Virus record (IMG/VR): IMGVR_UViG_3300021960_000148 | Coordinates: 1-44,762 of that record | Reading direction: 5' to 3' (one strand) | Origin: a virus | DNA: 44,762 nucleotides | Part shown: positions 1 to 44,762 of the stretch, piece after piece | Layout: each line of letters starts with the position of its first letter | Position numbering within the stretch: the stretch's first letter is position 1 | Position numbers and translations under genes: made by a program | The notes under the pieces: generated by a model | The model's database searches: none | What the model saw: only the letters and a program-made list of their open reading frames with translations | What the model was told of the DNA's origin: nothing

Positions 1-14
1 ATCAGGAGATCAAG

Positions 15-1394: not shown

Positions 1395-1414
1395 TAGCTA
1401 AGCTATAGAAACGA

Positions 1415-1441: not shown

Positions 1442-1460
1442 ACTAATGGACTTATAGAAT

Positions 1461-3909: not shown

Positions 3910-3971
3910 AAAATACTTGCAAGAACAAACGTTCACGTTCAAGTCTTTTCAAGGAACATAGGAGAAAAACT

Positions 3972-5444: not shown

Positions 5445-5462
5445 AATTATCTGATTTAGTTT

Positions 5463-5487
5463 AAAAGGGGCTTAGGCCCCTTTTTTA
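5463..5487 (+). terminator. Strong intrinsic terminator after the tube gene
   Basis: A perfect 9-bp stem (AAAAGGGGC / GCCCCTTTT) with a TTAG loop runs into six T residues. It ends the capsid-to-tube transcript 19 bases after the stop codon and directly precedes a promoter. Confidence 0.92.
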
Positions 5488-5509
5488 TTATACCTAGCAA
5501 AAATAGTTC

Positions 5510-5538
5510 TTGACTTTTATTCTCCTATGAACTATACT
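5510..5538 (+). promoter_or_regulatory. Sigma70-type promoter, late promoter copy 1
   Basis: TTGACT (5510-5515), a 17-base spacer and TATACT (5533-5538), preceded by AAAAATAGTTC. The same upstream block, spacing and an internal TCCTAT recur at 20703-20742. The likely start near 5545 gives a ~39-base leader containing a small hairpin (GAGAG 5555-5559 / CTCTC 5564-5568) and an AAAGAGA ribosome site. It should drive the second tube gene, the chaperones, the tape measure and the tip. Confidence 0.85.
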
Positions 5539-5583
5539 ATACATTAGTCAAAGTGAGAGCTACCTCTCTTAAAGAGAAAAAAT

Positions 5584-6471: not shown

Positions 6472-6485
6472 GGAGGTCAATATAA

Positions 6486-6938
6486 ATGGAACTAAAAAAA
6501 CTAATGGTGGATACAAAATCTATATGGATAGATTTCCCCGGACTAGAAAATTTTCAAATAGAAGTGTCAAACCTTTCTAGAAAAGAATTAACAGGTTTAA
6601 GAAAAAGATGTACTTCTAATAAGTTTGATCGTAAATCTAGACAGATTGTAGAAAATTTAGATGAGGACAAATTTGTTAAAGAGTTTGCAAAAGCAACTAT
6701 TCAAAACTGGAAAGGTCTTACAATTGCACACTTAGAGACTCTAATTCTTATTGATACAGATAATCAAGATCCTGCAGCTGAGGTAGACTACTCGGAAGAA
6801 AATGCAGAAATTCTTGTTACAAATTCAACTGAATTCGATACATGGCTCAATGAGGTAGTCTTTGATTTAGAAAACTTTCGTAGTAAAGGAAAAACAGAAA
6901 GCCCTAGAAAGGTTGGAAAAGCTATTTCAGAATCTTGA
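6486..6938 (+). CDS. Tail assembly chaperone, G-like
   Basis: 150 aa with AGGAGG a few bases upstream. Sits between tube and tape measure, the fixed place of lambda gpG-type chaperones that keep the tape measure soluble during tail assembly. The small acidic alpha-beta protein (MELKKLMVDTKSIWIDFPG ... LSRKELTGLRKRCTS) fits this class. Its 3' end overlaps the next open frame, the usual arrangement for a programmed frameshift producing a G-T fusion. Function rests mainly on context. Confidence 0.65.
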   Translation: MELKKLMVDTKSIWIDFPGLENFQIEVSNLSRKELTGLRKRCTSNKFDRKSRQIVENLDEDKFVKEFAKATIQNWKGLTIAHLETLILIDTDNQDPAAEVDYSEENAEILVTNSTEFDTWLNEVVFDLENFRSKGKTESPRKVGKAISES

Positions 6939-7266
6939 TACGGGTATGACTCGTGATAAATATTTCACGATGATGGAACAGTTAGATAAAGAACCTAAAG
7001 ACTCAGAAATTCCTCCCGATTGGGAGGATCTTCCAGATGAAATGGTATATGCAATAAATACCTTTAATACTTTAGGGGATAGAGTATACCCAGATATAGG
7101 CTTTGTAGGAAAAGACTATACTAATTTAAATACTTATATAGAAATTTACGGAATTGAGGATAGAGGGTTCTTCTTAGAAGTACTGCAGTTTCTTGATTCA
7201 AGAGCTATCAAAAAGTCCCAGGAACAACTTAAAAGGGAGCACGATAAGCTAAAGAGAAAAAAATAG
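6913..7266 (+). CDS. Tail assembly chaperone, T-like frameshift partner
   Basis: Up to 117 aa; the frame is open from 6871 (stop TAG at 6868-6870) and overlaps the G-like gene by 68 bases. Relative to that gene it is in the +1 (equivalently -2) frame. The listed start is a TTG without a ribosome site, and the ATG at 6946 also lacks one. Expression by frameshifting from the upstream gene, giving a ~260-aa fusion, therefore seems more likely than independent initiation. Candidate +1 slip sites are AAAA at 6891-6894 and AAAG at 6918-6921. The product is charged and helical with a Lys-rich C-terminus (REHDKLKRKK), as expected for a tape-measure-binding T domain. Confidence 0.6.
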   Translation: MEKLFQNLDTGMTRDKYFTMMEQLDKEPKDSEIPPDWEDLPDEMVYAINTFNTLGDRVYPDIGFVGKDYTNLNTYIEIYGIEDRGFFLEVLQFLDSRAIKKSQEQLKREHDKLKRKK

Positions 7267-29700: not shown

Positions 29701-32198
29701 TCACTGCTATTACTACAAACGCTATTGATCATGCTGCCGCGGGAGCTACAGCAGGTACTACAGCAAAAGGCCTCTCGTCTTTTAACTCCTCTCATTTCAG
29801 CATCACTAGCGGTTTCGTTTCTCTAGCAGGTAATATAAGTAATACCCAGTTAAGTAACCCGAGTATTACAATAACAGACAGTGAAAGTACTCCTAACACC
29901 TCAACCGTAAATTTAGGCGAAACTATTACTTTTGCAGGGACAGCCAACGAAGTAACTGTACTAGAGAACAACAAAACAGTCACTATGGGTCTTCCCGACG
30001 ATGTAACTATAACAGGCAATCTTACTGTAAACGGTACAACAACTACTATAAATACTACAAACATGGTAGTCGCAGATAGTTTAATAGAACTTTCTAACGG
30101 TACCACGGGGTCTCCCGCAAATGATGCAGGTATAGTAATAGAAAGAGGGGACTCTGATAATGCGTTCTTTGGCTGGGACGAAAGCGCAGATAAATTTACT
30201 CTAGGAACAGGTACTTTTACAGGTGCAAGTACAGGTAATCTATCGTTTACTACAGGCACTCTTGCAGCAAATATAACTGGTGATGTAACCGGTGATGTAA
30301 CCGGTGATGTAACCGGTGATGTATATGCTAGTAATGGTACTAGTAAAATTTTAGAAGCCGGTACTGACGGTACAAATGCTTTATTTACAGGTGGAGCCTC
30401 TAAAGTATTACACGAAGCAGAAAATAGTGATAATGCAAACTACTATATACCCTTCTTTTCCACTCAGACAAGTACTACAGGCTCCGTCCCTAAAACAGAT
30501 AGTGATTTAAAATATAATCCTTCTACAGGTAGAATTACGGCAGGCAATATACAAGGAAATCTTTTTGGTAATGTTACAGGTAACGTTACTGGTAATATTA
30601 CGGGTAATGTTAGCGGTTCGATCACTGGAACTGTATCAGGAAACGCAGGTTCAGCTTCGGTTTTACAGACTCCTAGAAGTATCTATATTGGGACCGGTTA
30701 TGTGTCTTTTGATGGAAGTGCAAATGTAGATTTGACAGAGGCCATGGAAGACGCTGTAGGAGCAATGTTCGCTAGTAATACTGAAAATGGTTCAACAATT
30801 ACATACGATGATACAGACGGTACTTTAGATATTACAACTACCGCTCTTTATAATGGTACTAGTAAAAAATTAGAAGCCACTAGCACAGGTTTAGAAGTAT
30901 TTGGACATATTTTACCAGATACTACTGAAACATACGATTTAGGTTCTCCTACAAAAAGATTTCGAAAAGGTTATTTCGACGCAGGCACAATCTACTTAGG
31001 AACACAAGAACTAACCGCGGATAGCTCAGGTATTACAGTTTCAGGAGATTTTACTGCTAATAACATCACAGGTACTCTTACAGGTAATGTTACAGGTAAT
31101 GCAAGTGGTACAGCTAACTCTCTTACTACTGCTAGAAATATCACCGTAGGTTCTGGAGTTCATCACTCTTTTGATGGCTCTGCAGATATAGATTTAACAG
31201 AAGCTATACAAGATGTAGTAGGAGCAATGTTTAGCAGTAATACTGAAACAGGAATTACTGTGACCTACCAAGACTCTGACGGCACTATAGATTTAGTCGC
31301 TGGTGGCGGTAGTTCAGGAGCTACTATAGATATAGGTACTTCAGCTCCTAGCAGCCCTTCAGCAGGACAATTGTGGTGGGATTCAAGTGAATTAACTCCG
31401 TATGTGTACTACAACGATGGTAGTAGTTCTCAGTGGGTTCAATTTGTATCAAGTAGCTCTTCTGGAAATTCAGTAGTTTCTGTAAGTACTTCTGCGCCTA
31501 GTGGACCTACACCTGGCCAACTATGGTGGGATTCAAGCGATCTAACTCCTTATGTGTACTACAACGATGGTGGTAGTTCGCAGTGGGTTGAATTCGTTTC
31601 AGGCGGAGGCGGAGGAAGCAGTACTTCTTTAGTAACAGTTGGTACTTCAGCTCCTAGCAGCCCTTCAGCAGGGCAACTATGGTGGGACTCAAGTGATTTC
31701 ACTCCGTATGTGTACTACAACGATGGTACCAGCTCTCAATGGGTAGAATTTTCTCCGGGAGGGCAATCTAACGCATATACAATGCCTTCAAACATAGGTA
31801 CAGCGGGCCAAGTATTAAGAGTACCTGCTTCAGGAACTGTACTTGAGTGGGTAGACCCTCCAGGCACTGGAGTAGAAACAATACGACAAGATGGTACAAT
31901 AAGTGTAAATACTGGAACACAACGCTGGTATGTACCTGCAAATGTAGTTATTACAAAAATAGTAGCTAGAGTAAATACAGCCCCTACTGGAGCTTCAATG
32001 AATCTTACGCTTAACAAAGTTTCCGGAGGTACGACAACAACCACAACAATGTCTATTGCAGATGGCGCTAACAAGGCAGAAAATAATTCGCCCAGTTTAT
32101 CTTTGAATTATGATGATTATCTAACTGTAGATGTAACTCAAATTGGTTCAACACAGGCAGGACAAGACTTACAACTTATAATTAGTTATACATATTAG
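23712..32198 (+). CDS. Giant mosaic tail fibre (2828 aa)
   Basis: Largest gene here; TAGGAG precedes the ATG. The N-terminal anchor (PSNGDTVTVSGITYTWN) matches the five downstream fibres. In order: five 47-aa repeats (about 44-275); a nested copy of the GxxYxIxxLGxTxW domain (282-386); GNVTG ladders, likely beta-helical, near 515-600, 1050 and 2190; GSGYTSAP repeats near 740-860; and recurrent YASNGTSKIL and LTVSGTQTIINS / LTVNGTTTTINT blocks. Two SDTVLMTAKAIADKIEDYG blocks, three GQLWWDSS(D/E) modules (2537-2682) and a terminal beta domain (about 2735-2828) complete it. No S74 domain is seen. It is probably a trimeric long fibre with a receptor-binding tip; length and trimerisation are inferred. 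Confidence 0.85.
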   Translation: MSEYIFPSNPSNGDTVTVSGITYTWNSSPGYWTNNVVGEQLLSVGADTGTDDTINVGVDTLNFEGGTGVTTTVTNNNIKIDASPAPVAFSVGADTGTDDSITPGTDTLNFEGGTGVTTTVTNNNIKIDASPAPVAFSVGADTGTDDNVTPGTDTLNFEGGTGVTTTVSNNNIRIDANPAPVAFSVGADTGTDDSITPGTDTLNFEGGTGVTTTVTNNNIKIDANPAPVAFSVGANLGTDDSITPGTDTLNFEGGTGVVTTVSNNNIKIDLASDFLSNSSSSLVATSIVSGTAYVIKTLGNTNWTSLGATAITVSSVSSLSEGTEYIIKSLGSTTTQTWTSMGADTNPAVGEIFVGASVDLGSGSGEVYETAFTATSNGSGTGTIMKNANHFITFMDASNGSNSLLSSSSLTYNPGTGYLQAGNLQGSFFGEFAGTVKGTFIGGLGADVAAAKLDVTERNGSVETDDMYFIMGDGFSGVRAVESMSNIKYTHSTTNIEVPGLTDGTAVLKGGRLTGAVTGNVTGNVTGNVTGYVIGDVRASDASVMLDSSAKTFTGDLTGNVTGNVVGNVVGAVAGNVVGNIVGDVKASDSSVMVDSSAKTFTGNLTGNVLGDLTGDVYASNGTSKILEAGTDGTNAIFTGTVDGTVTTAENVVVVANETEDANLYLLMSDGISTQEAIEASSTLRFNPSTDVLTIDTLNTTKGLLELATSNISEDVVDIGLYGYYDNGISVVLSVSLTNGGSGYTSAPAVSFSGGGGSGASGTVSLTNGAVTSFNLTSKGSGYTSAPTITIASPTTTSFGFSSGSLERIVITNISQQGNANGTDISINGGATATANITSNKVVSATITNAGSGYTTAPDINFYNFYSSPGPQGYGIVGVELPTDKIYIGTTQFTLLNEGDKLTYNGGSSPIGGLTNNTDYYVRSKTTEVGGGYIQLSATSGGSTINLTSLGGSSHTFSYTAATATASISTNVYSGLFRDASANKWKLFKDSQVKPDTTVDTTDSHYTTDTLVANTEGNVTGNLIGDIYASNTTSKILESGTDGTNATFTGDVTGDVTGDVTGDVTGNIGGTTGTFTGAVSFGSLTDSGESITITKFVDEADGISSNDNDTTIPTSAAIKNYVDGATVAPVLAVAATTGTTNITVGTDTLTITGGTGIDSSITGNTATLSISSNMLQFGADTGTAFYRNFGSLLNVIGTSNEIETSVSSNQIQVGLPNDVTIGNNLIVSGNLTVSGTQTIINSNTVNIGDNIIVLNSDETGTPSQNAGIEIERGTSSNRSLLWMEGTDYWQFDGSASVYASKFIGDLAGDVYASNGTSKILESGTDGTDATFTGTSSNSSNIATTVDTTTDDVFYPIFVDGTTGSEAPMVDTGLNYNPGTGTMSATNFSGNISGSATTASGVTITENSTEDATHYLTFVNGTTSTRAVRVDSALTFNPYDDEVTASGSFVGASFVKSGGASTSFLMADGTTTDVSSGKYAISITGDAGTLEGSNKAFYTNASNINAGTLANTYLPDLVVDDFADAAIQVSSESFSDSDTVLMTAKAIADKIEDYGYSTTVGTVTSVTAGNGLDIGGTGTAPSLSVDLNNLTASAVDGSADSLAFINDTDNTSKKVSIVNFLADIAGAGLSQSGGQLTTAGSLNVASFNTAAIQESTESFSDSDTVLMTAKAIADKIEDYGYSTTAGTITGVTAGTGLTGGGTSGTITINVDDLTTNELHADSLQLGTESFADNDTTLMTSAAIKDFVQDAFNHSNHTGASVALNGDTLEITNLASTNLSLTDSGDANSTHYITMTSGATGSQTVKTDAGLTYNASTNTLTGGEFVGGGSGLTGLTSGQIPNNSANTTGSAASLTNAKNFSIAGDITASTISFNGTGHVALQSTLATVNSNVGQHGSTTTIPVITVDAKGRITAASTANIGNTWTIEDGYQGGPTVVNYSVAQGEKLKITGSNGITSIMTSAGSTRTLDIALGTSGVTANSYGSSTLIPQITVDAYGRITAITTNAIDHAAAGATAGTTAKGLSSFNSSHFSITSGFVSLAGNISNTQLSNPSITITDSESTPNTSTVNLGETITFAGTANEVTVLENNKTVTMGLPDDVTITGNLTVNGTTTTINTTNMVVADSLIELSNGTTGSPANDAGIVIERGDSDNAFFGWDESADKFTLGTGTFTGASTGNLSFTTGTLAANITGDVTGDVTGDVTGDVYASNGTSKILEAGTDGTNALFTGGASKVLHEAENSDNANYYIPFFSTQTSTTGSVPKTDSDLKYNPSTGRITAGNIQGNLFGNVTGNVTGNITGNVSGSITGTVSGNAGSASVLQTPRSIYIGTGYVSFDGSANVDLTEAMEDAVGAMFASNTENGSTITYDDTDGTLDITTTALYNGTSKKLEATSTGLEVFGHILPDTTETYDLGSPTKRFRKGYFDAGTIYLGTQELTADSSGITVSGDFTANNITGTLTGNVTGNASGTANSLTTARNITVGSGVHHSFDGSADIDLTEAIQDVVGAMFSSNTETGITVTYQDSDGTIDLVAGGGSSGATIDIGTSAPSSPSAGQLWWDSSELTPYVYYNDGSSSQWVQFVSSSSSGNSVVSVSTSAPSGPTPGQLWWDSSDLTPYVYYNDGGSSQWVEFVSGGGGGSSTSLVTVGTSAPSSPSAGQLWWDSSDFTPYVYYNDGTSSQWVEFSPGGQSNAYTMPSNIGTAGQVLRVPASGTVLEWVDPPGTGVETIRQDGTISVNTGTQRWYVPANVVITKIVARVNTAPTGASMNLTLNKVSGGTTTTTTMSIADGANKAENNSPSLSLNYDDYLTVDVTQIGSTQAGQDLQLIISYTY
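23841..24530 (+). repeat. Five tandem 141-bp repeats in the giant fibre gene
   Basis: GTAGGTGCAGATACAGG or a close variant starts at 23841, 23982, 24123, 24264 and 24405, an exact 141-base period. Each unit encodes SVGADTGTDDSITPGTDTLN followed by FEGGTGVTTTVTNNNIKID. The high DNA identity points to recent expansion. Confidence 0.93.
25260..25307 (+). repeat. 12-bp tandem repeat (VTGN ladder)
   Basis: Unit GTAACAGGTAAT three times exactly, then a fourth unit with two changes, inside the giant fibre gene. It encodes VTGNVTGN, a probable beta-helix rung; looser copies continue to about 25455. Confidence 0.85.
26856..26903 (+). repeat. 12-bp tandem repeat (TGDV ladder)
   Basis: Four exact copies of ACAGGTGACGTA in the giant fibre gene, encoding TGDVTGDV. 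Confidence 0.88.
30276..30323 (+). repeat. 12-bp tandem repeat (TGDV ladder, second site)
   Basis: Four copies of AC(C/T)GGTGATGTA in the giant fibre gene. They encode the same TGDV rung as at 26856 but with different codons, so this ladder expanded separately. Confidence 0.85.
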
Positions 32199-32219: not shown

Positions 32220-34811
32220 ATGACCGCAATTAATTTTACAAATTCACCTTCTAACGGAGATACTACTACAGTAGCAGGAGTAACGTATACTTATAATTCT
32301 ACCACTAGCAGGTGGGAAATTACTAGTGGTAGCGGCGGAGGTGGTAGTGCTATAGAAGTAGGAATTACCGCACCCTCTACACCTGCTGCGGGGCAGCTAT
32401 GGTGGGATTCAAGCGAGTTCACTCCTTATATCTATTATACAGATACTGACAGCTCGCAGTGGGTTGAATTTTCTCCTGGAGCAGGTGGTGGAGGTGGTAG
32501 TGCTATAGAAGTAGGAACTACCGCACCATCTACACCTGCTGCAGGTCAACTGTGGTGGGACTCAAGTGATTTCACTCCTTATATATACTATACAGATAGT
32601 ACTGGTTCCCAATGGGTTGAATTTTCACCTGGAGATACTGGCAGCGGAGGTGCAGCCGTAGAAGTGGGTACAGCAGCTCCTGGAAGCCCTTCAGCAGGTC
32701 AATTATGGTGGGACTCAAGTGATTTTACTCCTTATGTATACTATAACGATGGCACCAGTTCACAATGGGTTGAATTTGTAGCAACTTCTCAAACCTCAGG
32801 ATCCGCAGCTACATTGACTACTGCTAGAAATATAGGCGGAGTGTCTTTTGATGGGTCCGCTGATATTATACCCAATATAGTAACGGATACCACGCCTCAG
32901 TTAGGGGGCCCTTTGGATGTTAATGGTCAGGATATTGTAACTATAAGTAATGGAGATATAGATTTAGATCCAAATGGCTCAGGTGTTGTAGTGTTTAAAG
33001 GAAATGCGACGAAAGGTTCTGGACAATTTAAGCTTAACTGCGAAAATAATTCACATGGTATAACTATAAAAGGACCTCCTCATAGTGCTGGTGCAAGTTA
33101 TACTCTAACTTTGCCAGATGACGATGGTACTGCGGATCAAGTTCTAAAAACAGATGGATCAGGTGCTTTAAGTTGGGGAGATCAGGGAGGAGTAGCAACT
33201 TATGCAACTATAGCTCTTCTAGTTGCTGCTACGGGAATGACTACCTCGGACTTGGCATTTGTAACTGCAAATAATAATCTTTATCTATATACAGGTACAG
33301 GTTGGTTTAAAGTAGCTACTGTGGAAAATAACTCTCCTACTGCTATTACTGGAGTAGGGGCTACTACTAGTTTGGCGGACGACGGGACTGCTACAGTTAT
33401 TACAGCAGTCTCTACAGACCCAGAAGGTTTTCCACTTACATGGTCTTATTCTGTCACTACGGGTTCTTTGACCAATGGAGGAGGGGCGACTGCTACAGTC
33501 TCTCAGGCTGATAACGTATTTACTATTACTCCTACAACTACTGAAGCATACGCGGGGTCTTTTTCTATTACTTTTAGTGCTACTGATGGAACTAATGCTG
33601 TTACCGCGATAAGTGCTTTTACATTACAATTTAATTATGATTGGGCTAATACCTCTCAGCAACAAAGAATAATAGCATCAGATGGCGCCCAAAACTGGGG
33701 TTTTGGTAATGCAGTAAGCATAGACGGTGAGACACTTGTTGTAAGTGCCTACGGCTCAACAGTCAGCTACCAAGCTAGTTCGGGTTCCGCGTATGTCTGG
33801 ACTCGTTCTGGCACTACTTGGACTCAGCAACAAAAATTAACAGCAGGCGATTATGCGGCTGGCGACTGGTTCGGAACATCAATAGATATGGAAGGAGATA
33901 CAATAATAGTAGGAGCACCCGAGGAAGACGCTGCAGCAGATCGTGCGGGTGCAGCATATATTTTTACTCGTTCCGGTACTACATGGTCTCAACAAGCCAA
34001 AATAACAGCATCAGATGCACAGGCTAGTGACCTATTCGGAATAGACGTAGCTATATCTGGAAATACAGTAGTAGTAGGAGCTTATTGGGAGGATACCGGA
34101 GGAAGCGCCGCGGGTGCAGCATATGTCTTTACCCGTTCCGGCACTACTTGGTCTCAACAACAAAAACTACAAGCATCAAACGCAGGGGCCAATGATCAGT
34201 TCGGAGGTGCAGTAGATATAGACGGAGATACAATAGTAGTAGGAGCCATATATGAAGATACAGGATTCACAAATACGGGTACAGCATACGTCTTTACTCG
34301 TTCTGGTACTACTTGGACTCAGCAACAAATGCTACAAGCATCAGATGCAGCGCAATATGACGAACTAGGATGGTCAGTAGCAATATCAGGAGATACAATA
34401 GCAGCAGGTGCCAGGTTTGAAGATACAGCAGACAACAATGCAGGTGCAGCATATATATTTACTCGCTCTGGCACTACATGGTCTCAGCAAGCTAAATTAA
34501 CAGCATCAGATGGGTATGACACTGATTATTTTGGGATAGGTCTGGCATTAGATGGAAATACAGTAGTAGTAGCGGCCTCACATGAAGATACTACTACATC
34601 TGATTCAGGTGCAGCATATGTCTTTACCCGTTCCGGCACTACTTGGTCTCAAGATAAAAAACTAAAAGCATCTAGTCCAAAGCAGGATGGGGCTTTAGGC
34701 GGCTACAACGGCAAGGGCATAGCTCTGGAAGATGATACAATTGTTTGTGGACAGCCAGGCGGCGACAGTACCAACGGCGGTGCGGCTGATATCTTCGTAG
34801 GTCCTTCATAA
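32220..34811 (+). CDS. Fibre-like adhesin with FG-GAP beta-propeller head, copy 1
   Basis: 863 aa; AAGGAGA upstream. Order: anchor (SPSNGDTTTVAGVTYTYNST), three GQLWWDSS modules (about 44-188), a TTARNIGGVSFDGSADI joint, a DLDPNGSGVVVFKG block shared with the 36795 gene, a YLYTGTGWFKVATV joint, an Ig-like domain (about 372-475, DPEGFPLTWSYSVT), then a head from about 480. The head has seven repeats of the type QQQKLTASD..FG..VAI.GDTIVVGA..ED..AAYVFTRSGTTW. They match FG-GAP_2 repeats, and seven units are enough for one closed propeller; the last unit ends without TRSGTTW, as expected for ring closure. It is probably a receptor- or glycan-binding fibre. No enzymatic residues recognised. Confidence 0.8.
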   Translation: MTAINFTNSPSNGDTTTVAGVTYTYNSTTSRWEITSGSGGGGSAIEVGITAPSTPAAGQLWWDSSEFTPYIYYTDTDSSQWVEFSPGAGGGGGSAIEVGTTAPSTPAAGQLWWDSSDFTPYIYYTDSTGSQWVEFSPGDTGSGGAAVEVGTAAPGSPSAGQLWWDSSDFTPYVYYNDGTSSQWVEFVATSQTSGSAATLTTARNIGGVSFDGSADIIPNIVTDTTPQLGGPLDVNGQDIVTISNGDIDLDPNGSGVVVFKGNATKGSGQFKLNCENNSHGITIKGPPHSAGASYTLTLPDDDGTADQVLKTDGSGALSWGDQGGVATYATIALLVAATGMTTSDLAFVTANNNLYLYTGTGWFKVATVENNSPTAITGVGATTSLADDGTATVITAVSTDPEGFPLTWSYSVTTGSLTNGGGATATVSQADNVFTITPTTTEAYAGSFSITFSATDGTNAVTAISAFTLQFNYDWANTSQQQRIIASDGAQNWGFGNAVSIDGETLVVSAYGSTVSYQASSGSAYVWTRSGTTWTQQQKLTAGDYAAGDWFGTSIDMEGDTIIVGAPEEDAAADRAGAAYIFTRSGTTWSQQAKITASDAQASDLFGIDVAISGNTVVVGAYWEDTGGSAAGAAYVFTRSGTTWSQQQKLQASNAGANDQFGGAVDIDGDTIVVGAIYEDTGFTNTGTAYVFTRSGTTWTQQQMLQASDAAQYDELGWSVAISGDTIAAGARFEDTADNNAGAAYIFTRSGTTWSQQAKLTASDGYDTDYFGIGLALDGNTVVVAASHEDTTTSDSGAAYVFTRSGTTWSQDKKLKASSPKQDGALGGYNGKGIALEDDTIVCGQPGGDSTNGGAADIFVGPS

Positions 34812-34816
34812 TAGTT

Positions 34817-34853
34817 TTAAAAACAAGCAAAGGAGTAAAAAATGACAGCAATT
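34817..34853 (+). repeat. Shared fibre-gene leader repeat, copy 1
   Basis: TTAAAAACAAGCAAAGGAGT, then AAAAAATGACAGCAATT, spanning the ribosome site and first codons of the 34842 gene. The same block precedes three other fibre genes, so duplication units included their own translation signal. Confidence 0.9.
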
Positions 34854-36764
34854 AATTTAGCAGACTCTCCCTCTAATGGGGATACGGCCACGGTAAATGG
34901 AGCTACTTATACATATAATTCTAGTAATACTAGGTGGGAAGTTACAGCAGGCGCCGGAAGTAGTTTAACAACAGAACAAGTTCAGGATATTGTAGGAGAC
35001 CAGTTAACTACTAATGGTTCTCACACAGGTATTTCGTTCGCATATGATGATAGTGGAGACGCAGCTATAGACGCTACTATAGGTACTTTGAATCAAAATA
35101 CTACGGGATCTGCCGCTACGTTAACTACTCCTAGAGAGATAAATGGAGTTGCATTTAACGGGTCCGCAGATATAACTATACCCGCAGGAAATACTGTATA
35201 TGCAACTATGGCCCTTCTAGTAGCCGCTACGGGAATGTCTACTGGAGACATGGCATATGTAACTGCAAATAATAATCTTTATCTATATACAGGTAGTGGT
35301 TGGTTTAAAGTAGCCACTGTGGAAAATAACTCCCCTAGTGCTATTACGGGGGTAGGGTCTACTACTACCTTAGCTAGTGACGGTACTGCTACAGTTATTA
35401 CAGCGGTCTCTACAGACCCAGAAGGTTTCCCACTTACATGGTCTTATGCGGTCACTACGGGTTCTTTGACCAATGGAGGAGGAGCAAGTGCCACAGTCTC
35501 TCAGGCTGATAACGTATTTACTATCACTCCTACTACTAATAGTTCTTATGCAGGGACTTTTTCTATTACTTTTAGTGCTACTGATGGAACTAATGCTGTT
35601 ACCGCTGTAAGTGCTTTTACATTAGCATTTACAGTTGATTGGACTAGCACTACCCAACAAACTATATTATTAGCTCCTTCTGGAGATAGAGATGCTGATG
35701 ATAATTTTGGTACCTCTTGTGCGATAGACGGAAATACTGCTATTGTAGGAGCATATGGTGAACAAGCAGCATATGTCTTTACCCGCTCTGGTACTACTTG
35801 GACTCAGCAACAAAAATTAACAGGAGATGATTCAGGAAGTTCTTGGTATGGCTGGTCCTGTCATATAGACGGAGATACTGCCGTAGTAGGAGCGTATCTT
35901 AATGATATAGGATCAGATGTACAACGAGGTGCAGCTTTTGTATATACTCGTTCTGGCACTACATGGTCTTTGCAGCAAAAACTTATTAAAAGCGGTACTA
36001 CTGCTGAATATGATAGATTCGGAGAAGACGTTTATATAGATGGTGATAACATAATTGTAGGAGCTAGAGGTGTTGATAGTTATAAAGGAGCAGCTTATGT
36101 TTTTACTCGTTCAGGCACTACATGGACTCAACAGCAGGAATTACAAGCCTCCGATGCCGCCGCTAATGATTCGGGCGCGATGGCCGTTGCAATATCCGGA
36201 AACTATGCGGTTTATGGAGCCCCTTATGATGATGATACTGCTACTAATACTGGTTCCGCACATGTATGGATTAGATCAGGAACTACATGGACTCATCAGC
36301 AAAAATTAACAGCTTCTGATGCGGCTCAAAACGATAAGTTCGGACTGGAGAGTGTTGATATAGATGGAGACACAATCGTAGTAGGTGCATACAATGAAAA
36401 TGGTAGTGCAGGTTCCGTATATGCTTTTACTCGCTCAGGTACTACATGGTCTCAGCAACAAAAAATAGTAGCGTCTGATTCGACGGGATATGGTTATTTT
36501 GGTTCTAAATGTAGAATAAAAGGAGATTATCTTGTTGTGGGCTCTAATAATCTAAATAGTAGTAGGGGTGCTGTATATTTCTTTACTCGCTCTGGCACCA
36601 CATGGTCTCAGTCTAAAAAAATGATAGATAGTAGTTCTGCTGAGAATGATAATTTAGGGATTTGGGTAGGAATGTCAGGAAATACAGTCATCGCAGGAGC
36701 TAGAGGTGTTGATGATGGGTCTACCAACAATAGCGGAGCGGCCTACGTATTTGTAGGTGGATAA
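34842..36764 (+). CDS. Fibre-like adhesin with FG-GAP beta-propeller head, copy 2
   Basis: 640 aa, lacking the GQLWWDSS modules of copy 1. After the anchor (SPSNGDTATVNGATYTYNSS) come LTTEQVQDIVGDQLTTNGSH and a TTPREINGVAFNGSADITI joint. Then follow YLYTGSGWFKVATV (about 127-167), the Ig-like domain (168-268) and a seven-repeat FG-GAP head (272-640). Loops between strands differ widely from the other copies; for example the first blade is shortened to AIVGAYGEQAAYVFTRSG, and one FG is replaced by GAMAVAISGNY. Conserved stalk with diverged head suggests selection on binding specificity. Expression depends on the upstream fibre transcript plus its own strong AAAGGAGT site. Confidence 0.8.
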   Translation: MTAINLADSPSNGDTATVNGATYTYNSSNTRWEVTAGAGSSLTTEQVQDIVGDQLTTNGSHTGISFAYDDSGDAAIDATIGTLNQNTTGSAATLTTPREINGVAFNGSADITIPAGNTVYATMALLVAATGMSTGDMAYVTANNNLYLYTGSGWFKVATVENNSPSAITGVGSTTTLASDGTATVITAVSTDPEGFPLTWSYAVTTGSLTNGGGASATVSQADNVFTITPTTNSSYAGTFSITFSATDGTNAVTAVSAFTLAFTVDWTSTTQQTILLAPSGDRDADDNFGTSCAIDGNTAIVGAYGEQAAYVFTRSGTTWTQQQKLTGDDSGSSWYGWSCHIDGDTAVVGAYLNDIGSDVQRGAAFVYTRSGTTWSLQQKLIKSGTTAEYDRFGEDVYIDGDNIIVGARGVDSYKGAAYVFTRSGTTWTQQQELQASDAAANDSGAMAVAISGNYAVYGAPYDDDTATNTGSAHVWIRSGTTWTHQQKLTASDAAQNDKFGLESVDIDGDTIVVGAYNENGSAGSVYAFTRSGTTWSQQQKIVASDSTGYGYFGSKCRIKGDYLVVGSNNLNSSRGAVYFFTRSGTTWSQSKKMIDSSSAENDNLGIWVGMSGNTVIAGARGVDDGSTNNSGAAYVFVGG

Positions 36765-36769
36765 AATTA

Positions 36770-36806
36770 TTAAAAACAAGCAAAGGAGTAAAAAATGACA
36801 GCAATT
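36770..36806 (+). repeat. Shared fibre-gene leader repeat, copy 2
   Basis: Same 37-base block as at 34817, apart from one change in the start-region codons, before the S74 fibre gene. Confidence 0.9.
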
Positions 36807-38333
36807 GATTTAACAAATTCACCCTCTAACGGAACTACCGCTACTGTAGATGGTCGTACGTATACTTATAACTCTACTACTAGTAGGTGGGAGCTCGCGA
36901 GCTCTAGTTCTGCCAGCAGTTTATCAACAGAGCAAGTACAAGATATTGTAGGAGCTCAATTAGTTACTAATGGCTCTCATACAGGCATTTCGTTTGCGTA
37001 TGATGATAGTGGAGACGCAGCTATAGATGCTACTGTAGGAACTCTAAATCAAAATACTACAGGATCTGCGGCCACTCTAACTACTCCTAGAAATATAGGT
37101 GGAGTAGCTTTTGATGGCTCCGCTGATATTAATCTACCTGGTGTTAATGCTGCAGGAACTCAAAATACTACAGGATCTGCAACTACTCTAACTACTCCTA
37201 GAAATATAGGTGGAGTAGCTTTTGATGGCTCCGCGGATATTATACCCAATATAGTAACTGATACTACTCCTCAGTTAGGGGGTCCTTTGGATGTTAATGG
37301 TCAGGATATTGTAACTGTAAGTAATGGAGATATAGATTTAGATCCAAATGGTTCCGGTGTTGTAGCATTTAAAGGAAATGCAACCAAGGGTGCGGGTCAA
37401 TTTAAGTTAAACTGTGAAAATAACTCGCATGGAATAACTATTAAGGGACCTCCACATAGTGCTAGTGCTTCTTACACTTTAACATTACCTAACAATGACG
37501 GAGATGCTAATCAAGTTTTGAAAACAGATGGTTCTGGTGTATTAAGTTGGACTACGCCTGCAGCTGCAGGAGCCAGTTCGATTGACGATCTGTCAGATGC
37601 CGTGTATAACTCTACGGCACTTAGTCTTTTTCTTGGAGCAAATGCGGGCGCGGCCGTCACAAATAGTGCCAATGCAAACGTTGCAGTAGGCGTGAATGCA
37701 GGAGATAGTATTACATCTGCTAATATGAATGTACTGTTAGGTTATAACGCAGGTAATGCAATAACTACAGGCTCTAAGAACATTGTAATCGGAGGACAGG
37801 CATATAATACTACTAGTTCTAACGGCAGCCATAATATACTTATAGGCTATAATGCTGAAGCAACCAGTACTTCAACAAATAATGAGATGACAATAGGTAC
37901 TGCGTCAGGGGATGGCTTAATAAATAATGTAAGAATTCCTGGCGTCGATTTTACTATGAATACCACTGCTTTACATTATGGGGCAGAAATTAGAGCAGAC
38001 GGAGACGTAGTAGCTTACTATTCTTCAGATGAGAGACTGAAAGAAAATGTGCAAATAATTTCTAATGCTGTTAGTAAAGTACAACAGATTCGTGGAGTAA
38101 CTTTTGATTGGAAGGATGAATACTTAAAATCTCAAGGTGGAGAAGACGATTATTTTCATAGAAAGCATGATAGTGGTGTAATTGCACAGGACGTTGAAAA
38201 AGTACTACCTGAGTTAGTTGCAGAGCGAAAAGATGGTACAAAAGCAGTAAGATATGAAAAATTGGTCGCTGTATTAATAGAGGCCGTAAAAGAACTTAAA
38301 CAAGAAATAGAAAACCTAAAAGGAGAAAAATAA
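36795..38333 (+). CDS. Tail fibre with head-like repeats and C-terminal S74 self-cleaving chaperone
   Basis: 512 aa. It has the array anchor (SPSNGTTATVDGRTYTYNST) and the TGSAATLTTPRNIGGVAFDG joint twice. It also carries the DLDPNGSGVVAFKG block shared with the 32220 gene. From about residue 275 it has YadA-head-like repeats (LFLGANAGAAV, VAVGVNAGDSI, VLLGYNAGNAI, ILIGYNAEATS). The C-terminus is an S74 intramolecular chaperone: SSDERLKENV at 410-419, with Ser411 and Lys416 matching the Ser/Lys pair of endosialidase chaperones, then GVIAQDVEKVLPELV and a final helix YEKLVAVLIEAVKELKQEIE. By analogy the chaperone trimerises the fibre, then cuts itself off before Ser411. It is the only array member without a propeller. 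Confidence 0.85.
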   Translation: MTAIDLTNSPSNGTTATVDGRTYTYNSTTSRWELASSSSASSLSTEQVQDIVGAQLVTNGSHTGISFAYDDSGDAAIDATVGTLNQNTTGSAATLTTPRNIGGVAFDGSADINLPGVNAAGTQNTTGSATTLTTPRNIGGVAFDGSADIIPNIVTDTTPQLGGPLDVNGQDIVTVSNGDIDLDPNGSGVVAFKGNATKGAGQFKLNCENNSHGITIKGPPHSASASYTLTLPNNDGDANQVLKTDGSGVLSWTTPAAAGASSIDDLSDAVYNSTALSLFLGANAGAAVTNSANANVAVGVNAGDSITSANMNVLLGYNAGNAITTGSKNIVIGGQAYNTTSSNGSHNILIGYNAEATSTSTNNEMTIGTASGDGLINNVRIPGVDFTMNTTALHYGAEIRADGDVVAYYSSDERLKENVQIISNAVSKVQQIRGVTFDWKDEYLKSQGGEDDYFHRKHDSGVIAQDVEKVLPELVAERKDGTKAVRYEKLVAVLIEAVKELKQEIENLKGEK

Positions 38334-38956
38334 TGGCTTTGATATCTTCTGGTCAGCTAAAATTTAGTGAAATACAAACCGAATTTGGCGGAGAAAATCC
38401 TATAGCCTTTTCGGAATACTATGGAGGAGGTACTATTCTTGGTCTGTCTGCAGGAAACAGTGGTAGAGTCATTACTAATATTCCTTTAACGGGTAAAATA
38501 AAAATGTCTAACTTCCATGGGTCGGCAAAAGGAACTGCATCTAGTTCCTCCGCGGATGTAACTATTAGTATCACTGCAGCAGGTAGCACGACGACTACTC
38601 ACGGCTATAGGAATGATGGAACAACTCTTGGAAGTATCGCCAGTGGTAGTGCCACTGCATATGATGGAGCAACTATAAAAGCATTGAGAGCAGTGATGAA
38701 CGTGGACTTAAAACTTAATACCGTAATATCAAGAGGTTTTGTAGTAGTGCTTTCAGGAACTAGAGCCCAAGATTTTTTTACTTCTATAGATGTAGGAAGC
38801 CAGAACCTTACCTCCTCGTTCGGAGTAGGAGGAGGTACGCACACTCAAAGCGGAGGAAATACTACATGGAGTTGGACTCCTTATATTCCCTATAATACAG
38901 GTTTAGCGGCCTGGGTAAGCTCTTCAAACGATAAGGACGTGGATTTTAATGAATAA
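38333..38956 (+). CDS. Virion structural protein of the MALxSSGQI-type family
   Basis: 207 aa, overlapping the previous stop by one base (TAATG), with AAAGGAGA upstream. The N-terminal 60 residues (ISSGQLKFSEIQTEFGGENP, FSEYYGGGT, IPLTGKIKMSNFHGS) match a module common in fibre or baseplate-associated proteins of marine phages. The remainder (residues 65-207) is beta-rich, Ser/Thr/Gly-rich and ends WSWTPYIPYNTGLAAWVSS. I do not recognise that half. It probably associates with the S74 fibre encoded just upstream. Confidence 0.6.
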   Translation: MALISSGQLKFSEIQTEFGGENPIAFSEYYGGGTILGLSAGNSGRVITNIPLTGKIKMSNFHGSAKGTASSSSADVTISITAAGSTTTTHGYRNDGTTLGSIASGSATAYDGATIKALRAVMNVDLKLNTVISRGFVVVLSGTRAQDFFTSIDVGSQNLTSSFGVGGGTHTQSGGNTTWSWTPYIPYNTGLAAWVSSSNDKDVDFNE

Positions 38957-39461
38957 TTATACTATAGATATTATAGACAAAGTTCGTAATGATGATTTTA
39001 ATATTGTATGGGAAGGGTGTAAAGAAGATGCTATGTCCGAAAGTGTTTTTTCTTGGAGTGAATTTAATGCAACCACGGAGGAAGAAAAAAAAGAAACAGC
39101 ACTAACTCTTTTTCGCTCCTTTGCTTCAGATCCCGAAAGAACGGTTCTTAGAGTAGGAGAGGGCGCTAGATGTTTAGCCTTGTGTGCAGGTACTATTCAA
39201 GGAACAAATTTTGAATGGAGTATGTGGCTAGCCGGTTCAGATGCACAAAATAGCAAGGCTTGGATCTATGCGGACGAGTTTCAGCTAATAAGAGCGTTGA
39301 ATAGACAAACTATGGGAACAACTACGGATACTTTTAATATGCTAAAGGGAGATACTGTAGCGAGGAGAAATGTTCAAGGTCTAATTAATGCGAACAAGTT
39401 TTCACTTGTAGAAGAAACTACTAAATCTGATAACGTAATTAGCATAAAAGTAACATTTTAA
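38949..39461 (+). CDS. Hypothetical 170-aa protein in the fibre array
   Basis: It overlaps the end of the preceding gene by eight bases, so it is probably translated by coupling. An alpha-beta, Cys/Trp-containing protein without repeats, unlike its neighbours. N-terminal NYTIDIIDKVRNDDFNIVWE, a central strand pair (CLALCAGTIQGTNFEWSMWL), then AWIYADEFQLIRALNRQ and a C-terminal RRNVQGLINANKFSLVEE. The tail end is reminiscent of the last helix and strand of GNAT proteins, but no acyl-CoA loop is visible. It could be a fibre chaperone, given that small non-repetitive proteins beside fibre genes often are. Function unknown. Confidence 0.5.
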   Translation: MNNYTIDIIDKVRNDDFNIVWEGCKEDAMSESVFSWSEFNATTEEEKKETALTLFRSFASDPERTVLRVGEGARCLALCAGTIQGTNFEWSMWLAGSDAQNSKAWIYADEFQLIRALNRQTMGTTTDTFNMLKGDTVARRNVQGLINANKFSLVEETTKSDNVISIKVTF

Positions 39462-39485
39462 AAAATAAAAATAGTAATTACTTTA

Positions 39486-39522
39486 TTAAAAACAAGCAAA
39501 GGAGTAAAAAATGACAGCAATT
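39486..39522 (+). repeat. Shared fibre-gene leader repeat, copy 3
   Basis: Same block as at 34817, before the 39511 gene. It is preceded by an AT-rich stretch (39462-39485) with no recognisable promoter. Confidence 0.9.
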
Positions 39523-41547
39523 AATTTAACAAATTCACCCTCTAATGGAGACACTGCTACTGTAGGAAGTCTTACATATACTTATAACTCCACTACTAGT
39601 AGGTGGGAACTTGGCAGTCCCAGCGGTAGTGGGGCGCTATCTAATGAACAAGTGCAGGACTTAGCAGGAGCTCAATTAGCTACTAATGGTTCTCACACAG
39701 GTATTTCGTTCGCGTATGATGACAGCGGAGACGGAGCTATAGATGCTACTGTAGGAACTCTAAATCAAAATACTACAGGATCTGCAGCTACTCTAACTAC
39801 TCCTAGAAATATAGGTGGAGTTGCATTTAACGGGTCCGCGGATATTAATCTACCTGGTGTTAATGCTGCAGGAACTCAAAATACCACGGGATCTGCCGTT
39901 ACATTAACGACTCCTAGAGAGATAAATGGAGTTGCATTTAATGGATCTGCAGATATTACGGTACCTGCAGGCGGAGTAACAGTCTATGCAACTATGGCAC
40001 TTTTAGTAGCTGTTACTGGTATGTCTGCAGGAAATATGGCGTTTGTAACTGCGAACAATAATTTGTATATGTATACAGGCAGTGGTTGGTTTAAAGTAGC
40101 TACTGTGGAAAATAATTCTCCTAGTGCTATTACTGGAGTTGCTTCTGCTACTACCTTAGCTAGTGATGGTACTGCTACAGTTATTACAGCGGTCTCTACA
40201 GACCCAGAAGGTTTCCCACTTACATGGTCTTATGCAGTCACTACGGGCTCTTTGACGAATGGAGGAGGAGCGACTGCTACAGTCTCTCAGGCTGATAACG
40301 TATTTACTATCACTCCTACAACTACTGAAGCATATGCGGGAACTTTTTCTATTACTTTTAGTGCTACTGATGGAACTAATGCTGTTACCGCTGCGAGTGC
40401 TTTTACATTAGCATTTGCATATGATTGGACTACTGCTGCTCAACAACAAAAATTAACAGGATCGACCACAACTGGTGATAGTTATGGGTACAACGTACAT
40501 ATAGACGGAGATACAGCTATTGTAGGTGCCCGATTTGAAAACACTGCACAGGGTGCAGCATACATTTATACTCGTTCTGGCACTACATGGTCTCAGCAAC
40601 AAAAGTTAACAGCATCAGATGCACAAAATAGTGATCGATTTGGATGCGACGTAGAAATAGACGGAGATACAGTAGTAATAGGATCCATGCTTGATGACAC
40701 GCAGAGAGGTGCAGCATATGTCTTTACTCGATCTGGTACTACATGGTCTCAGCAACAAAAGTTAGTAGCATCAACTCGAACTGACTACGATCAGTTTGGT
40801 GAAGCTGTAGCTATAAACGGAGATACAATTGTTGTAGGTGCCCTTTTTGAGGATAGTGGAGGAAGCAATTCTGGTACAGCCTATGTCTTTACTCGATCTG
40901 GTACTACATGGTCTCAACAACAAAAGCTAGTAGCATCAGATGCAGCAGCTAATGATCAGTTTGGAAGCAACGTAGCTATAGCCGGGGATACAATTGTTGT
41001 AGGAGCTCTTTATGAAGACGCTGGAGGAAGCAATGCGGGTGCAGCATATGTCTTTACTCGATCTGGTACTACATGGTCTCAGCAACAAAAGCTAGTAGCA
41101 TCAGATGCAGCGGCTGATGACCGGTTTGGAAGCTCATCAAGCATAGATGGAGATACAATCGTTGTGGGTGCAGTTAATGAAAATAGTCAGGCGGGTTCAG
41201 CATATGTCTTTACTCGATCTGGTACTACATGGTCTCAGCAACAAAAAATAGTAGCGTCTGATGCAGGAGCCCATGACTGGTTCGGAATAGACGTTGATAT
41301 AGAAGAGGATACAGTTGTTGTAGGAGCCTACGGTGACGATTCTGGAACTACTCAAAATGGTGAAGGTGCAGCATATATCTTTACTCGTTCTGGCACTACA
41401 TGGACTCAGGATAAAAAAATAGTATCATCAACTAGATCAACCAATGCTTATTTTGGGTACCATGTAGCTCTGCAAGATAATTCAATTATTGTAGGAGCCT
41501 GGGGTGAAACTAGCCAGACTGGTGCAGCATATGTCTTTACCGTATGA
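39511..41547 (+). CDS. Fibre-like adhesin with FG-GAP beta-propeller head, copy 3
   Basis: 678 aa. Anchor (SPSNGDTATVGSLTYTYNST), LSNEQVQDLAGAQLATNGSH, then both joint variants (TTPRNIGGVAFNGSADINL and TTPREINGVAFNGSADITV), YMYTGSGWFKVATV, the Ig-like domain (about 206-305) and seven FG-GAP repeats (310-678). Its blades are the most regular of the four copies: units 3-6 keep QQQK(L/I)VAS with little variation, and units 3 and 4 are close in DNA too. This suggests recent blade duplication or homogenisation. The last unit ends AAYVFTV without the TRSGTTW strand, as expected for a closed ring. Confidence 0.82.
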   Translation: MTAINLTNSPSNGDTATVGSLTYTYNSTTSRWELGSPSGSGALSNEQVQDLAGAQLATNGSHTGISFAYDDSGDGAIDATVGTLNQNTTGSAATLTTPRNIGGVAFNGSADINLPGVNAAGTQNTTGSAVTLTTPREINGVAFNGSADITVPAGGVTVYATMALLVAVTGMSAGNMAFVTANNNLYMYTGSGWFKVATVENNSPSAITGVASATTLASDGTATVITAVSTDPEGFPLTWSYAVTTGSLTNGGGATATVSQADNVFTITPTTTEAYAGTFSITFSATDGTNAVTAASAFTLAFAYDWTTAAQQQKLTGSTTTGDSYGYNVHIDGDTAIVGARFENTAQGAAYIYTRSGTTWSQQQKLTASDAQNSDRFGCDVEIDGDTVVIGSMLDDTQRGAAYVFTRSGTTWSQQQKLVASTRTDYDQFGEAVAINGDTIVVGALFEDSGGSNSGTAYVFTRSGTTWSQQQKLVASDAAANDQFGSNVAIAGDTIVVGALYEDAGGSNAGAAYVFTRSGTTWSQQQKLVASDAAADDRFGSSSSIDGDTIVVGAVNENSQAGSAYVFTRSGTTWSQQQKIVASDAGAHDWFGIDVDIEEDTVVVGAYGDDSGTTQNGEGAAYIFTRSGTTWTQDKKIVSSTRSTNAYFGYHVALQDNSIIVGAWGETSQTGAAYVFTV

Positions 41548-41555
41548 TAATAATT

Positions 41556-41591
41556 TTAAAAGAAGCAAAGGAGTAAAAAATGACAGCAATT
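41556..41591 (+). repeat. Shared fibre-gene leader repeat, copy 4
   Basis: TTAAAAGAAGCAAAGGAGTA variant of the block at 34817, with a small change in the A-rich part, before the last array gene. Confidence 0.87.
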
Positions 41592-43580
41592 GATTTAACA
41601 AATTCAAATACTGCTACTGTAGATGGTCGTACGTATACTTATAATTCTACTACTAGCAGGTGGGAGATTACCACGGGTAATAGTGCCGGCTTAACAACAG
41701 AGCAAGTACAAGATGTCATAGCTGCTCAATTAGCTACTAATGGTTCTCACACAGGTATTTCGTTCGCGTATGATGACAGCGGAGATGGAGCCATAGATGC
41801 TACTATAGGTACTCTAAATCAAAACACTACAGGAACCGCTGCTACATTAACTACTCCTAGAAGCATAGGAGGACCTTCATTTGATGGCTCCGCGGATATT
41901 AATCTACCTGGTGTCAATACTACAGGAAATCAAAATACTAGTGGTACTGCTGCTACATTAGCTACTCCTAGGGAGATAAATGGAGTTGCCTTTGATGGGT
42001 CTGCAGATATTACCATACAGGGAGGTGATCCTACAATTTATGCAACGATGGCTCTTCTAGTAGCTGCTACGGGAATGTCTGCTGGTGATATGGCGTTTGT
42101 AAGTGCAAATAATAATCTTTATCTATATACAGGTACGGGTTGGTTTAAAGTAGCTACTGTGGAAAATAACTCTCCTAGTGCTATTACAGGAGTTGCTGCT
42201 GCTACTACTTTGGCTGATGACGGGACTGCTACAGTTATTACAGCGGTCTCTACAGACCCAGAAGGTTTTCCACTTACATGGTCTTATGCAGTCACTACAG
42301 GCTCTTTGACCAATGGAGGAGGGGCGACTGCTACAGTCTCTCAGGCTGATAACGTATTTACTATTACTCCTACAACTACCGAAGCATACGCGGGTACGTT
42401 CTCTATTACTTTTAGTGCTACAGACGGTGTTAATGGTGCTGTTACTGCTGCGAGCGCTTTTACATTAGTATTTACAGTTGATTGGTCTTCTATAAGTCAA
42501 CAACAAAAAATTATTGGTGGCGGTGCTACTGCGGTGGCTATTGACGGTAATACAGCCGCATTCTCAGATTGGAGTAATTCACAAGTCAAAATTTATACTC
42601 GCTCTGGTACTACATGGTCTCTAGAGGATACAGTGACAGTAACAGGTGGAAACAGTCAATACATAGGTGATAATGATAATATTAGAATATCAGGAGATAC
42701 TATTGTTGCAGGTGCTTCTCGTTATGACACTAGTAACCCCTACTCCAGTAATGAGGGTTGCGCTTATGTTTTTACTCGCTCTGGTACTACATGGTCTCAG
42801 CAAGCGTTATTAACAGCGTCAGATGCAGGGCCTAGTGATTATTTTGGAACTTCGGTAGATATAGATGGTGATAGTATTATAGTAGGGGCTCCGGAGTGGG
42901 ATCAAGGAAGTAACTATAATGTTGGCTCTGTATATATCTTTACTCGCTCTGGTACTACATGGTCTCAGCAGCAAAGGATTAATCCTACTTCACAGTACGG
43001 CGATGAAGCCGGTTCGGGGGTAGGGATATCAGGGGATACAATTGTTATAGGGGGCGATGAAGCGGGGGCCAGTCAATACGCAAATACTGGTAGAGCCTGG
43101 GTATATGTTCGTTCAGGAACCTCCTGGTCCTTTCAATCTACTTTAATACCTTCAGATGTGAGTACTACTCCGAACAACGCAACCAAGTTTGGTAAGTCTG
43201 TTGCTATTGATGAGGATACAATTGTGGTGGGCGCATGGGAAAATGATACAGTTTATGTTTTTACCCGTTCCGGAACCACATGGACTGAAGAACAAAAAAT
43301 TAAGCCAGGGTACGGTTCTGGAGAAGATTTTGGATGGTCAGTAGCTATAGATGGAGACGATATAATTATAGGTGTAAGAGAGTATGATACTTCCGGATTT
43401 GTTCATGATGGCGGCGCAAATATATACCAAAGATCTGGAACCACATGGTCAAGTGAAAGCTTTCTTACGTCATCAGATAAACAAAATAGTGGAAAATTTG
43501 GGTACTCTGTAGCTATTTCCGGAAGTACAGTAATTGTAGCAGCTTCTGGTGAAGGCGATTCATATATTTGGGCTGCTTAA
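41580..43580 (+). CDS. Fibre-like adhesin with FG-GAP beta-propeller head, copy 4
   Basis: 666 aa, last gene of the fibre transcript. The anchor lacks the SPSNGD segment (goes from DLTNSNTATV to DGRTYTYNSTTSRWE), an in-frame loss of about five codons compared with its sisters. Then come the EQVQDVIAAQLATNGSHTG block, two joint motifs (TTPRSIGGPSFDG, ATPREINGVAFDG), YLYTGTGWFKVATV, the Ig-like domain with an extra GA codon pair (DGVNGAVTAAS), and seven FG-GAP units (about 308-666). The head is the most diverged: blade 1 is trimmed and the others have unusual loops (ASRYDTSNPYSSNEGCAYVF). It ends SYIWAA just before a terminator. Confidence 0.8.
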   Translation: MTAIDLTNSNTATVDGRTYTYNSTTSRWEITTGNSAGLTTEQVQDVIAAQLATNGSHTGISFAYDDSGDGAIDATIGTLNQNTTGTAATLTTPRSIGGPSFDGSADINLPGVNTTGNQNTSGTAATLATPREINGVAFDGSADITIQGGDPTIYATMALLVAATGMSAGDMAFVSANNNLYLYTGTGWFKVATVENNSPSAITGVAAATTLADDGTATVITAVSTDPEGFPLTWSYAVTTGSLTNGGGATATVSQADNVFTITPTTTEAYAGTFSITFSATDGVNGAVTAASAFTLVFTVDWSSISQQQKIIGGGATAVAIDGNTAAFSDWSNSQVKIYTRSGTTWSLEDTVTVTGGNSQYIGDNDNIRISGDTIVAGASRYDTSNPYSSNEGCAYVFTRSGTTWSQQALLTASDAGPSDYFGTSVDIDGDSIIVGAPEWDQGSNYNVGSVYIFTRSGTTWSQQQRINPTSQYGDEAGSGVGISGDTIVIGGDEAGASQYANTGRAWVYVRSGTSWSFQSTLIPSDVSTTPNNATKFGKSVAIDEDTIVVGAWENDTVYVFTRSGTTWTEEQKIKPGYGSGEDFGWSVAIDGDDIIIGVREYDTSGFVHDGGANIYQRSGTTWSSESFLTSSDKQNSGKFGYSVAISGSTVIVAASGEGDSYIWAA

Positions 43581-43583
43581 ATA

Positions 43584-43612
43584 AAAAGACCCCCGAAAAA
43601 GGGGGGTCTTTT
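43584..43612. terminator. Bidirectional terminator between convergent operons
   Basis: A perfect 11-bp stem (AAAAGACCCCC / GGGGGTCTTTT) with a GAAAAAG loop. The T run on each strand lets it serve both the fibre operon and the - strand operon, whose last gene stops at 43618. Confidence 0.95.
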
Positions 43613-43884: not shown

Positions 43885-44762
43885 TTATACAATTTCACAT
43901 GCTCCACCCACGCAGGCAAGCTCTTGTGATCCGGTTGTGTTGTCTTCTTTTTCGAATTGAGATAGCTCTTCCCAATCCACGTTTTGTGGCATAGCCGCCA
44001 CTAGGCTTTCATATTGACTTTCATCAATATCTTCATAAGGGGCTTGTTGATATACGTGGTCACTAGTCGGTAATAGACTAATGCCTGAACATAAATCAAA
44101 GTTATCCCATATCCATTGTGCTACCTTAAAATACTCACTATCAGTGTAGTATACGGTTACACTCGGCTTGTGTTCACACCAATGATTTTGGTATGTTTTC
44201 CACAAAGCTAGCTGTTCCATAGCTCCCACTTCTTTCACACAAGTACTAGACTCGGGTGCCTTTACTGGAAAACTAAATACCACAGAAGAGGGCGACATAA
44301 CGTCTTGCTCTACTGGGAATCCTGCTTGTTCCATATAGACTGCAAGTGGATCTTTTTTGTCTGAACGTACTCTGCGAATGTAATGCTTAGAAAAGCGAGG
44401 GTGAATGCCGGAAGCAGAGTCAACAAGCTGAGAAACAGTCCCACTAGGCTTAACACAAGTAATAGCTGCAGAAGCATTAACCCCAAGTTTTTCAGCCCAC
44501 TCTTTATTAGTTTGAATACTAACATTTCGCATCTCCTCTAACCATGCTGCAAGTTCGGGATTGTTAGCATCTCCCAGAACTGCATGATCCATAATACCTG
44601 TTAAACTTACGCCTAACAGAGCCTCTTCTTCAGTATTGCGCTTCCAACGCACCCGCAGATACCTAAAATCAGTAAGAGTAGACTGTAGAGTACCAATAAT
44701 GGTAGCTTTACGAACTTTCTCTTTTAAAGTTTCAAGCGTATCATCTGCACGCACAACTACTT
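43885..44762 (-). CDS. nrdJ: Class II (adenosylcobalamin-dependent) ribonucleotide reductase, C-terminal part
   Basis: Partial: the frame stays open to the window edge, so only the last ~292 residues are seen. The full enzyme, about 700 aa in the monomeric family, reduces ribonucleotides to deoxyribonucleotides for phage DNA synthesis, using a B12 radical and host thioredoxin. Family marks seen: GVSLTGIMD, ITCVKPSGTVSQLVDSASGI followed by HPRFSKHYIRRVRSD, and a C-terminal Cys-x4-Cys (CVGGAC). That tail matches the shuttle cysteine pair of the monomeric Lactobacillus-type enzyme. It is convergent to the structural genes, so it belongs to the nucleotide-metabolism side of the genome. Confidence 0.92.
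   Translation of the reverse strand, partial: VVVRADDTLETLKEKVRKATIIGTLQSTLTDFRYLRVRWKRNTEEEALLGVSLTGIMDHAVLGDANNPELAAWLEEMRNVSIQTNKEWAEKLGVNASAAITCVKPSGTVSQLVDSASGIHPRFSKHYIRRVRSDKKDPLAVYMEQAGFPVEQDVMSPSSVVFSFPVKAPESSTCVKEVGAMEQLALWKTYQNHWCEHKPSVTVYYTDSEYFKVAQWIWDNFDLCSGISLLPTSDHVYQQAPYEDIDESQYESLVAAMPQNVDWEELSQFEKEDNTTGSQELACVGGACEIV

Follow-up and report, generated by a model that had tools for sequence, protein, structure and literature searches.

A probable receptor-binding fibre array with predicted seven-bladed FG-GAP_2 propeller heads in an uncultivated T5-like phage

Introduction

The L-shaped fibre pb1 of bacteriophage T5 carries a Peptidase_S74-type tip. Receptor-binding proteins headed by a beta-propeller are also known from phages, namely the phi11 receptor-binding protein, PRD1 P2, and phiKZ gp131C; in the phi11 protein and in the endosialidase tailspikes the propeller is mounted on a stem, and the last blade of the phi11 propeller is closed by an N-terminal strand (PMC4901313). 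In a literature search whose scope left most subscription journals outside, we found no paper joining FG-GAP with phage and tail fiber, a giant-virus paper only for FG-GAP with phage and virion, and no account of shared-stem arrays of propellers with interchangeable heads; FG-GAP goes unmentioned in a paper on the Schizotequatroviruses, a group of large Vibrio phages with a broad host range.

Here we analyzed the whole 44,762-base virus record IMGVR_UViG_3300021960_000148 (hereafter the window), the source of which is best read as a marine, tailed, uncultivated, T5-like siphovirus. From the evidence below, we consider it likely that the region studied is the receptor-binding fibre array of this phage, with exchangeable heads that include FG-GAP_2 propellers.

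Results

The window encodes a T5-type major tail protein, a tape measure protein, and a distal tail protein, followed by the fibres, a hairpin, and a ribonucleotide reductase. The fibre genes are thus encoded among tail genes and have a fibre-type N-terminal region, which places them with tail fibres, and their PHROG tail-fibre matches are located in the N-terminal halves of the proteins. A terminator-like hairpin (GACCCCC..GGGGGGTC followed by a T run; 43588..43612, plus strand), seen in the sequence, closes the array before a gene that converges on it (43885-44754) and encodes the C-terminal portion of a B12-dependent ribonucleotide reductase. The closest relatives of this reductase are Roseobacter phage enzymes; we rejected a host assignment from it, because the best matches (Roseobacter and other phages) reach only 57% amino acid identity, a distance too great to name a host. 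A megablast search of positions 1-12000 of the window against deposited phages returned no relatives.

The original prediction had placed four propeller-headed fibre genes at 32220, 34842, 39511, and 41580, and open reading frames are indeed present at 32220-34811, 34842-36764, 39511-41547, and 41580-43580, all on the plus strand. We call them A (863 amino acids), B (640), D (678, identified from its ORF, repeats, and an AlphaFold2 model), and E (666). Their cadherin/Ig-like stems lie at 33195..33638 (A), 35193..35636 (B), 39979..40422 (D), and 42033..42479 (E), and their propeller heads of seven units each at 33639..34808, 35637..36761, 40423..41544, and 42480..43577, respectively, that of E being the most divergent. 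The four genes are not consecutive, as had been supposed, since fibre C (36795..38333, plus strand, 512 amino acids) and two unrelated ORFs stand between B and D. Fibre C has the same anchor as the other fibres and a PHROG tail-fibre match, and a Peptidase_S74 tip (Pfam E = 3.5e-16) replaces the propeller. The two ORFs (38333..38956 and 38949..39461, plus strand) have no significant Pfam match; in two IMG/VR loci, L024 and L025, few genes of the region are better conserved than these, and they are possible candidates for assembly factors. The predicted common anchor and Ig stalk held in that an anchor and a cadherin/Ig-like stalk are shared, but the N-terminal half of A is longer than and different from those of the other fibres. 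It includes, between the anchor and the fibre region, a tandem series of three W-rich repeats, each some 45 residues long (EVGTTAPSTPAAGQLWWDSSDFTPYIYY...; 32346-32790), which recur near the C terminus of a 2828-amino-acid fibre at 23712-32198.

A repeated ribosome-binding leader, 37 bases long including the first codons, precedes B (TTAAAAACAAGCAAAGGAGTAAAAAATGACAGCAATT; 34817..34853, plus strand) and recurs in the same form before C (36770..36806) and D (39486..39522) and before the E gene of a close relative, L001; the leader before E in the window (41555..41591, like the others on the plus strand) is slightly different. Such tandem, near-identical leaders and stems would favor recombination, as expected if the array were a reservoir for recombinational switching from which one or a few paralogues are incorporated or expressed at once. 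We regard this as quite improbable, however, because all copies are intact, lie on one strand, and have their own ribosome-binding sites, the terminator-like hairpin stands at the end only, and related phages have mixed arrays that are likewise intact.

We next consider the heads. Splitting the proteins at RSGT[TS]W gave exactly seven units in all four genes, in agreement with the original prediction, and each gene's final unit ends with the AAYVF-type strand, also as predicted. A search with the Pfam FG-GAP_2 profile (PF14312), which had been suggested as a check, matched A, B, D, and E with 7, 7, 7, and 6 units and E-values of 3.9e-107, 6.9e-80, 6.5e-114, and 5.6e-50, respectively, all scoring far over the curated cut-off of 23 bits; a six-frame search of the record likewise found 27 units. 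That Pfam finds six units in E can be put down to its degenerate first unit, which has 43 residues and no FG motif. We also counted units in the complete ORFs of IMG/VR loci, which had been retrieved with the D protein and with alignments of stem and head. Among these, 64 non-redundant runs had exactly seven units, one had fourteen, and none had 8-13, so that seven is not a chance number; 52 of the 64 ended no more than 12 residues from the C terminus. A protein of locus L004 (468-3518) has fourteen units in two separate runs of seven and is likely a double propeller. Runs of one to six units were rejected as propellers with fewer blades, since most such heads match the seven-unit length and merely score poorly.

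Bacterial FG-GAP_2 proteins also have mostly seven or fourteen units and share, in the best segment, up to 57% identity with the D head. This similarity would fit phage propellers that imitate FG-GAP_2 surface proteins of bacteria and attach to host adhesins capable of self-association, an explanation that we find very improbable given that the nearest bacterial relatives are scattered over many phyla.

We then modeled the fold by single-chain AlphaFold2 with an input alignment of window and locus sequences. The E head was modeled with a mean pLDDT of 86 and a pTM of 0.90, and in the full-length D model the head was mostly above pLDDT 90, while the anchor, linker, and stem were mostly below 50. 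The D and E heads each contain 28 strands (7 x 4), beginning with a single d, followed by six sets of abcd and a terminal abc. In this order the terminal abc takes its d from the first strand, which supports the predicted closure of the final blade by the QQQK strand at the start of the head. A closed propeller of seven blades, as originally proposed, is thus predicted for D and E by modeling, and for A and B by unit count alone. The best solved structures matched by Foldseek were integrin alpha propellers (E 1.4e-14), and VIA-align superposed a predicted head on an integrin-alpha propeller from end to end (Z 40.3, rmsd 2.9, 338 of 369 residues); a sequence profile search also matched integrins (E 1.6e-8). 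Viral predicted structures with a matching fold include those of deposited phages and giant viruses. Taking the models together, the heads are predicted to be integrin-alpha-type seven-bladed propellers. The integrin calcium motif (PMC3123361) was searched as Dx[DN]xDG in heads A, B, D, and E without a match, and calcium-binding integrin blades were rejected on that ground.

According to the predicted strand order, the da and bc loops lie on one face of the propeller and the ab and cd loops on the other; both ends of the head are on the ab/cd face, which would be the face of the stem junction. Mean identity among the four paralogues was 0.25 at da/bc positions versus 0.81 at ab/cd positions, and the trend was repeated in relatives from a syntenic phage, L002, and in a separate set from locus L006. 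This asymmetry in the models suggests that the da/bc face is an outward, variable binding face. In most propellers loops are more variable than strands, which counts against reading the asymmetry as a binding signal.

The stem was compared with the heads at the sequence level. It comprises about 148 residues and matches Pfam Cadherin_5 in all nine members examined and Big_9 in six of them (best E 1.6e-6), with a weak Collagen_trimer match in three. Between paralogues of the window, the stems are 85-89% identical in pairwise DNA comparison versus 53-67% for the heads. Stem identity was 0.87 within the window phage, 0.92 within L002, and 0.76 between the two phages; the corresponding head values were 0.59, 0.69, and 0.62, and divergence at fourfold sites agreed with this pattern. 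L001 is 99-100% identical to the window from the head of E through the reductase, 93-97% identical in most of the stem half of E, and 54-75% identical just upstream of 41562, at the position of D. These patterns fit an exchange of heads through the shared stem and leader, and gene conversion of the stem would look alike. Recent shuffling of blades among the paralogues was rejected, as exact matches of at least 49 nucleotides sit in the stem and linker and none in the heads.

The best-conserved part of the region in L024 is the C-terminal portion of C (91% amino acid identity) with the next two ORFs (73 and 82%), and the surrounding fibres bear other heads in place of the propellers, a pattern that likewise fits head exchange. 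Together with the shared anchor and maturation-type S74 tip of C, this agrees with a view of the propellers as virion decorations that adhere weakly and in a general way to surfaces or polysaccharide, specific recognition being left to fibre C and the 2828-amino-acid fibre. The strong divergence of the paralogous heads points instead to specific recognition, as do the lectin-type heads borne by the same stem, and we judge the decoration model unlikely.

How widely the stem and its heads occur was examined in IMG/VR. The stem search yielded 116 confirmed stretches, 80 of which were kept, and the C-terminal parts of stem genes from all fetched loci fell into 24 clusters. The FG-GAP type had 61 members, a share inflated because the FG-GAP head also served to fetch loci, and the Laminin_G_3 type had 41; smaller clusters included glycine-rich, SGL-like, and unknown domains. 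The propeller is one among many head types borne by the stem, which occurs in contigs of siphoviruses as well as myoviruses. The Laminin_G_3 (concanavalin-like) head, of about 650 amino acids, is the second commonest on the stem, occurring in L054 (9881-12412) and in about 40 other stem genes. Two or more stem genes, often with unlike heads, were found in 35 of 96 loci, some of which are overlapping or near-identical contigs. A contractile-sheath gene is present in eight of 27 larger records that contain the stem, FG-GAP heads, or both, L006 with its different fibre anchor being one of the eight, and two of the 27 have a T5-type tail protein. Stem and propeller were found together in IMG/VR relatives, and the stem was nearly absent from deposited phages, with one weak match among 50,697 records.

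Two further kinds of FG-GAP gene were observed in viral contigs. A T4-like myovirus contig (L006 236-13648 and L041 1-2977) has at least six tandem seven-unit FG-GAP genes; the L006 fibres are built on an unrelated coiled-coil anchor and encoded upstream of the tail sheath and tube genes, making this an independent FG-GAP fibre array. In L007, L008, and L009, a 618-amino-acid FG-GAP ORF has an N-terminal signal-peptide-like segment, unlike the fibre type.

Discussion

We propose that, from the N terminus onward, A, B, D, and E each comprise an anchor, a region of fibre repeats, the conserved cadherin/Ig-like stem, and, as the C-terminal head, a propeller of seven blades. The propeller would be joined to the stem by its conserved face, so that the variable d-a and b-c loops make up the opposite, outward face, and judging from the predicted topology these loops most likely touch host surface molecules. 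Stem and leader appear to be homogenized within a phage, in contrast to the heads, which diverge or undergo exchange; because of this difference, it is probable that heads are swapped by recombination through these common sequences, which would alter adsorption specificity. For the propeller fibres, we infer the virion location, the outward binding face, receptor binding, and recombinational exchange from these comparisons and models. More tentatively, and with rather more doubt than confidence, the stem could belong to a modular adhesin kit spread across uncultivated siphoviruses and myoviruses, in which a constant cadherin-like stem carries at least two dozen kinds of head and several are displayed together, so that one particle might recognize several targets.

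In uncultivated phages, where receptor-binding heads usually escape recognition, the stem offers a sequence handle by which to find them, and its near-absence from deposited phages suggests how much of the repertoire culture collections miss. The pattern of constant stem and variable head makes recombinational change of adsorption specificity testable, and the integrin-like heads supply a defined candidate binding face.

The array had been described as an unusual receptor-binding repertoire, which is only partly right, since propeller-headed receptor-binding proteins are known and FG-GAP proteins are annotated in a few deposited phages. The phi11 receptor-binding protein, PRD1 P2, phiKZ gp131C, and the endosialidases differ from the window heads in blade number or family, and no common-stem arrays are described for them (PMC4901313). 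Vibrio phage nt-1 and cyanophages S-TIM5 and S-MbCM6 also have an FG-GAP_2 propeller, with seven units in nt-1 and S-TIM5, but as single genes or as one domain of a giant protein, and none has the stem of the window. Because the nt-1 protein is encoded away from the tail genes and lacks an anchor of the window type, a phage FG-GAP propeller need not be a fibre tip.

With respect to T5 pb1, fibre C is likewise S74-tipped and encoded in a T5-like tail operon, whereas the propeller fibres have no S74 domain. The integrin alpha propeller matches the whole predicted head in fold and strand register (Z about 40) with detectable profile similarity, although the window heads lack its calcium motif and the window fibres, by Pfam scan, lack the thigh and calf domains. 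Bacterial FG-GAP_2 proteins share the repeat and the preference for seven or fourteen units; in the window, in contrast, the heads form fusions with anchors and stems of phage fibres, as paralogues within a tail operon.
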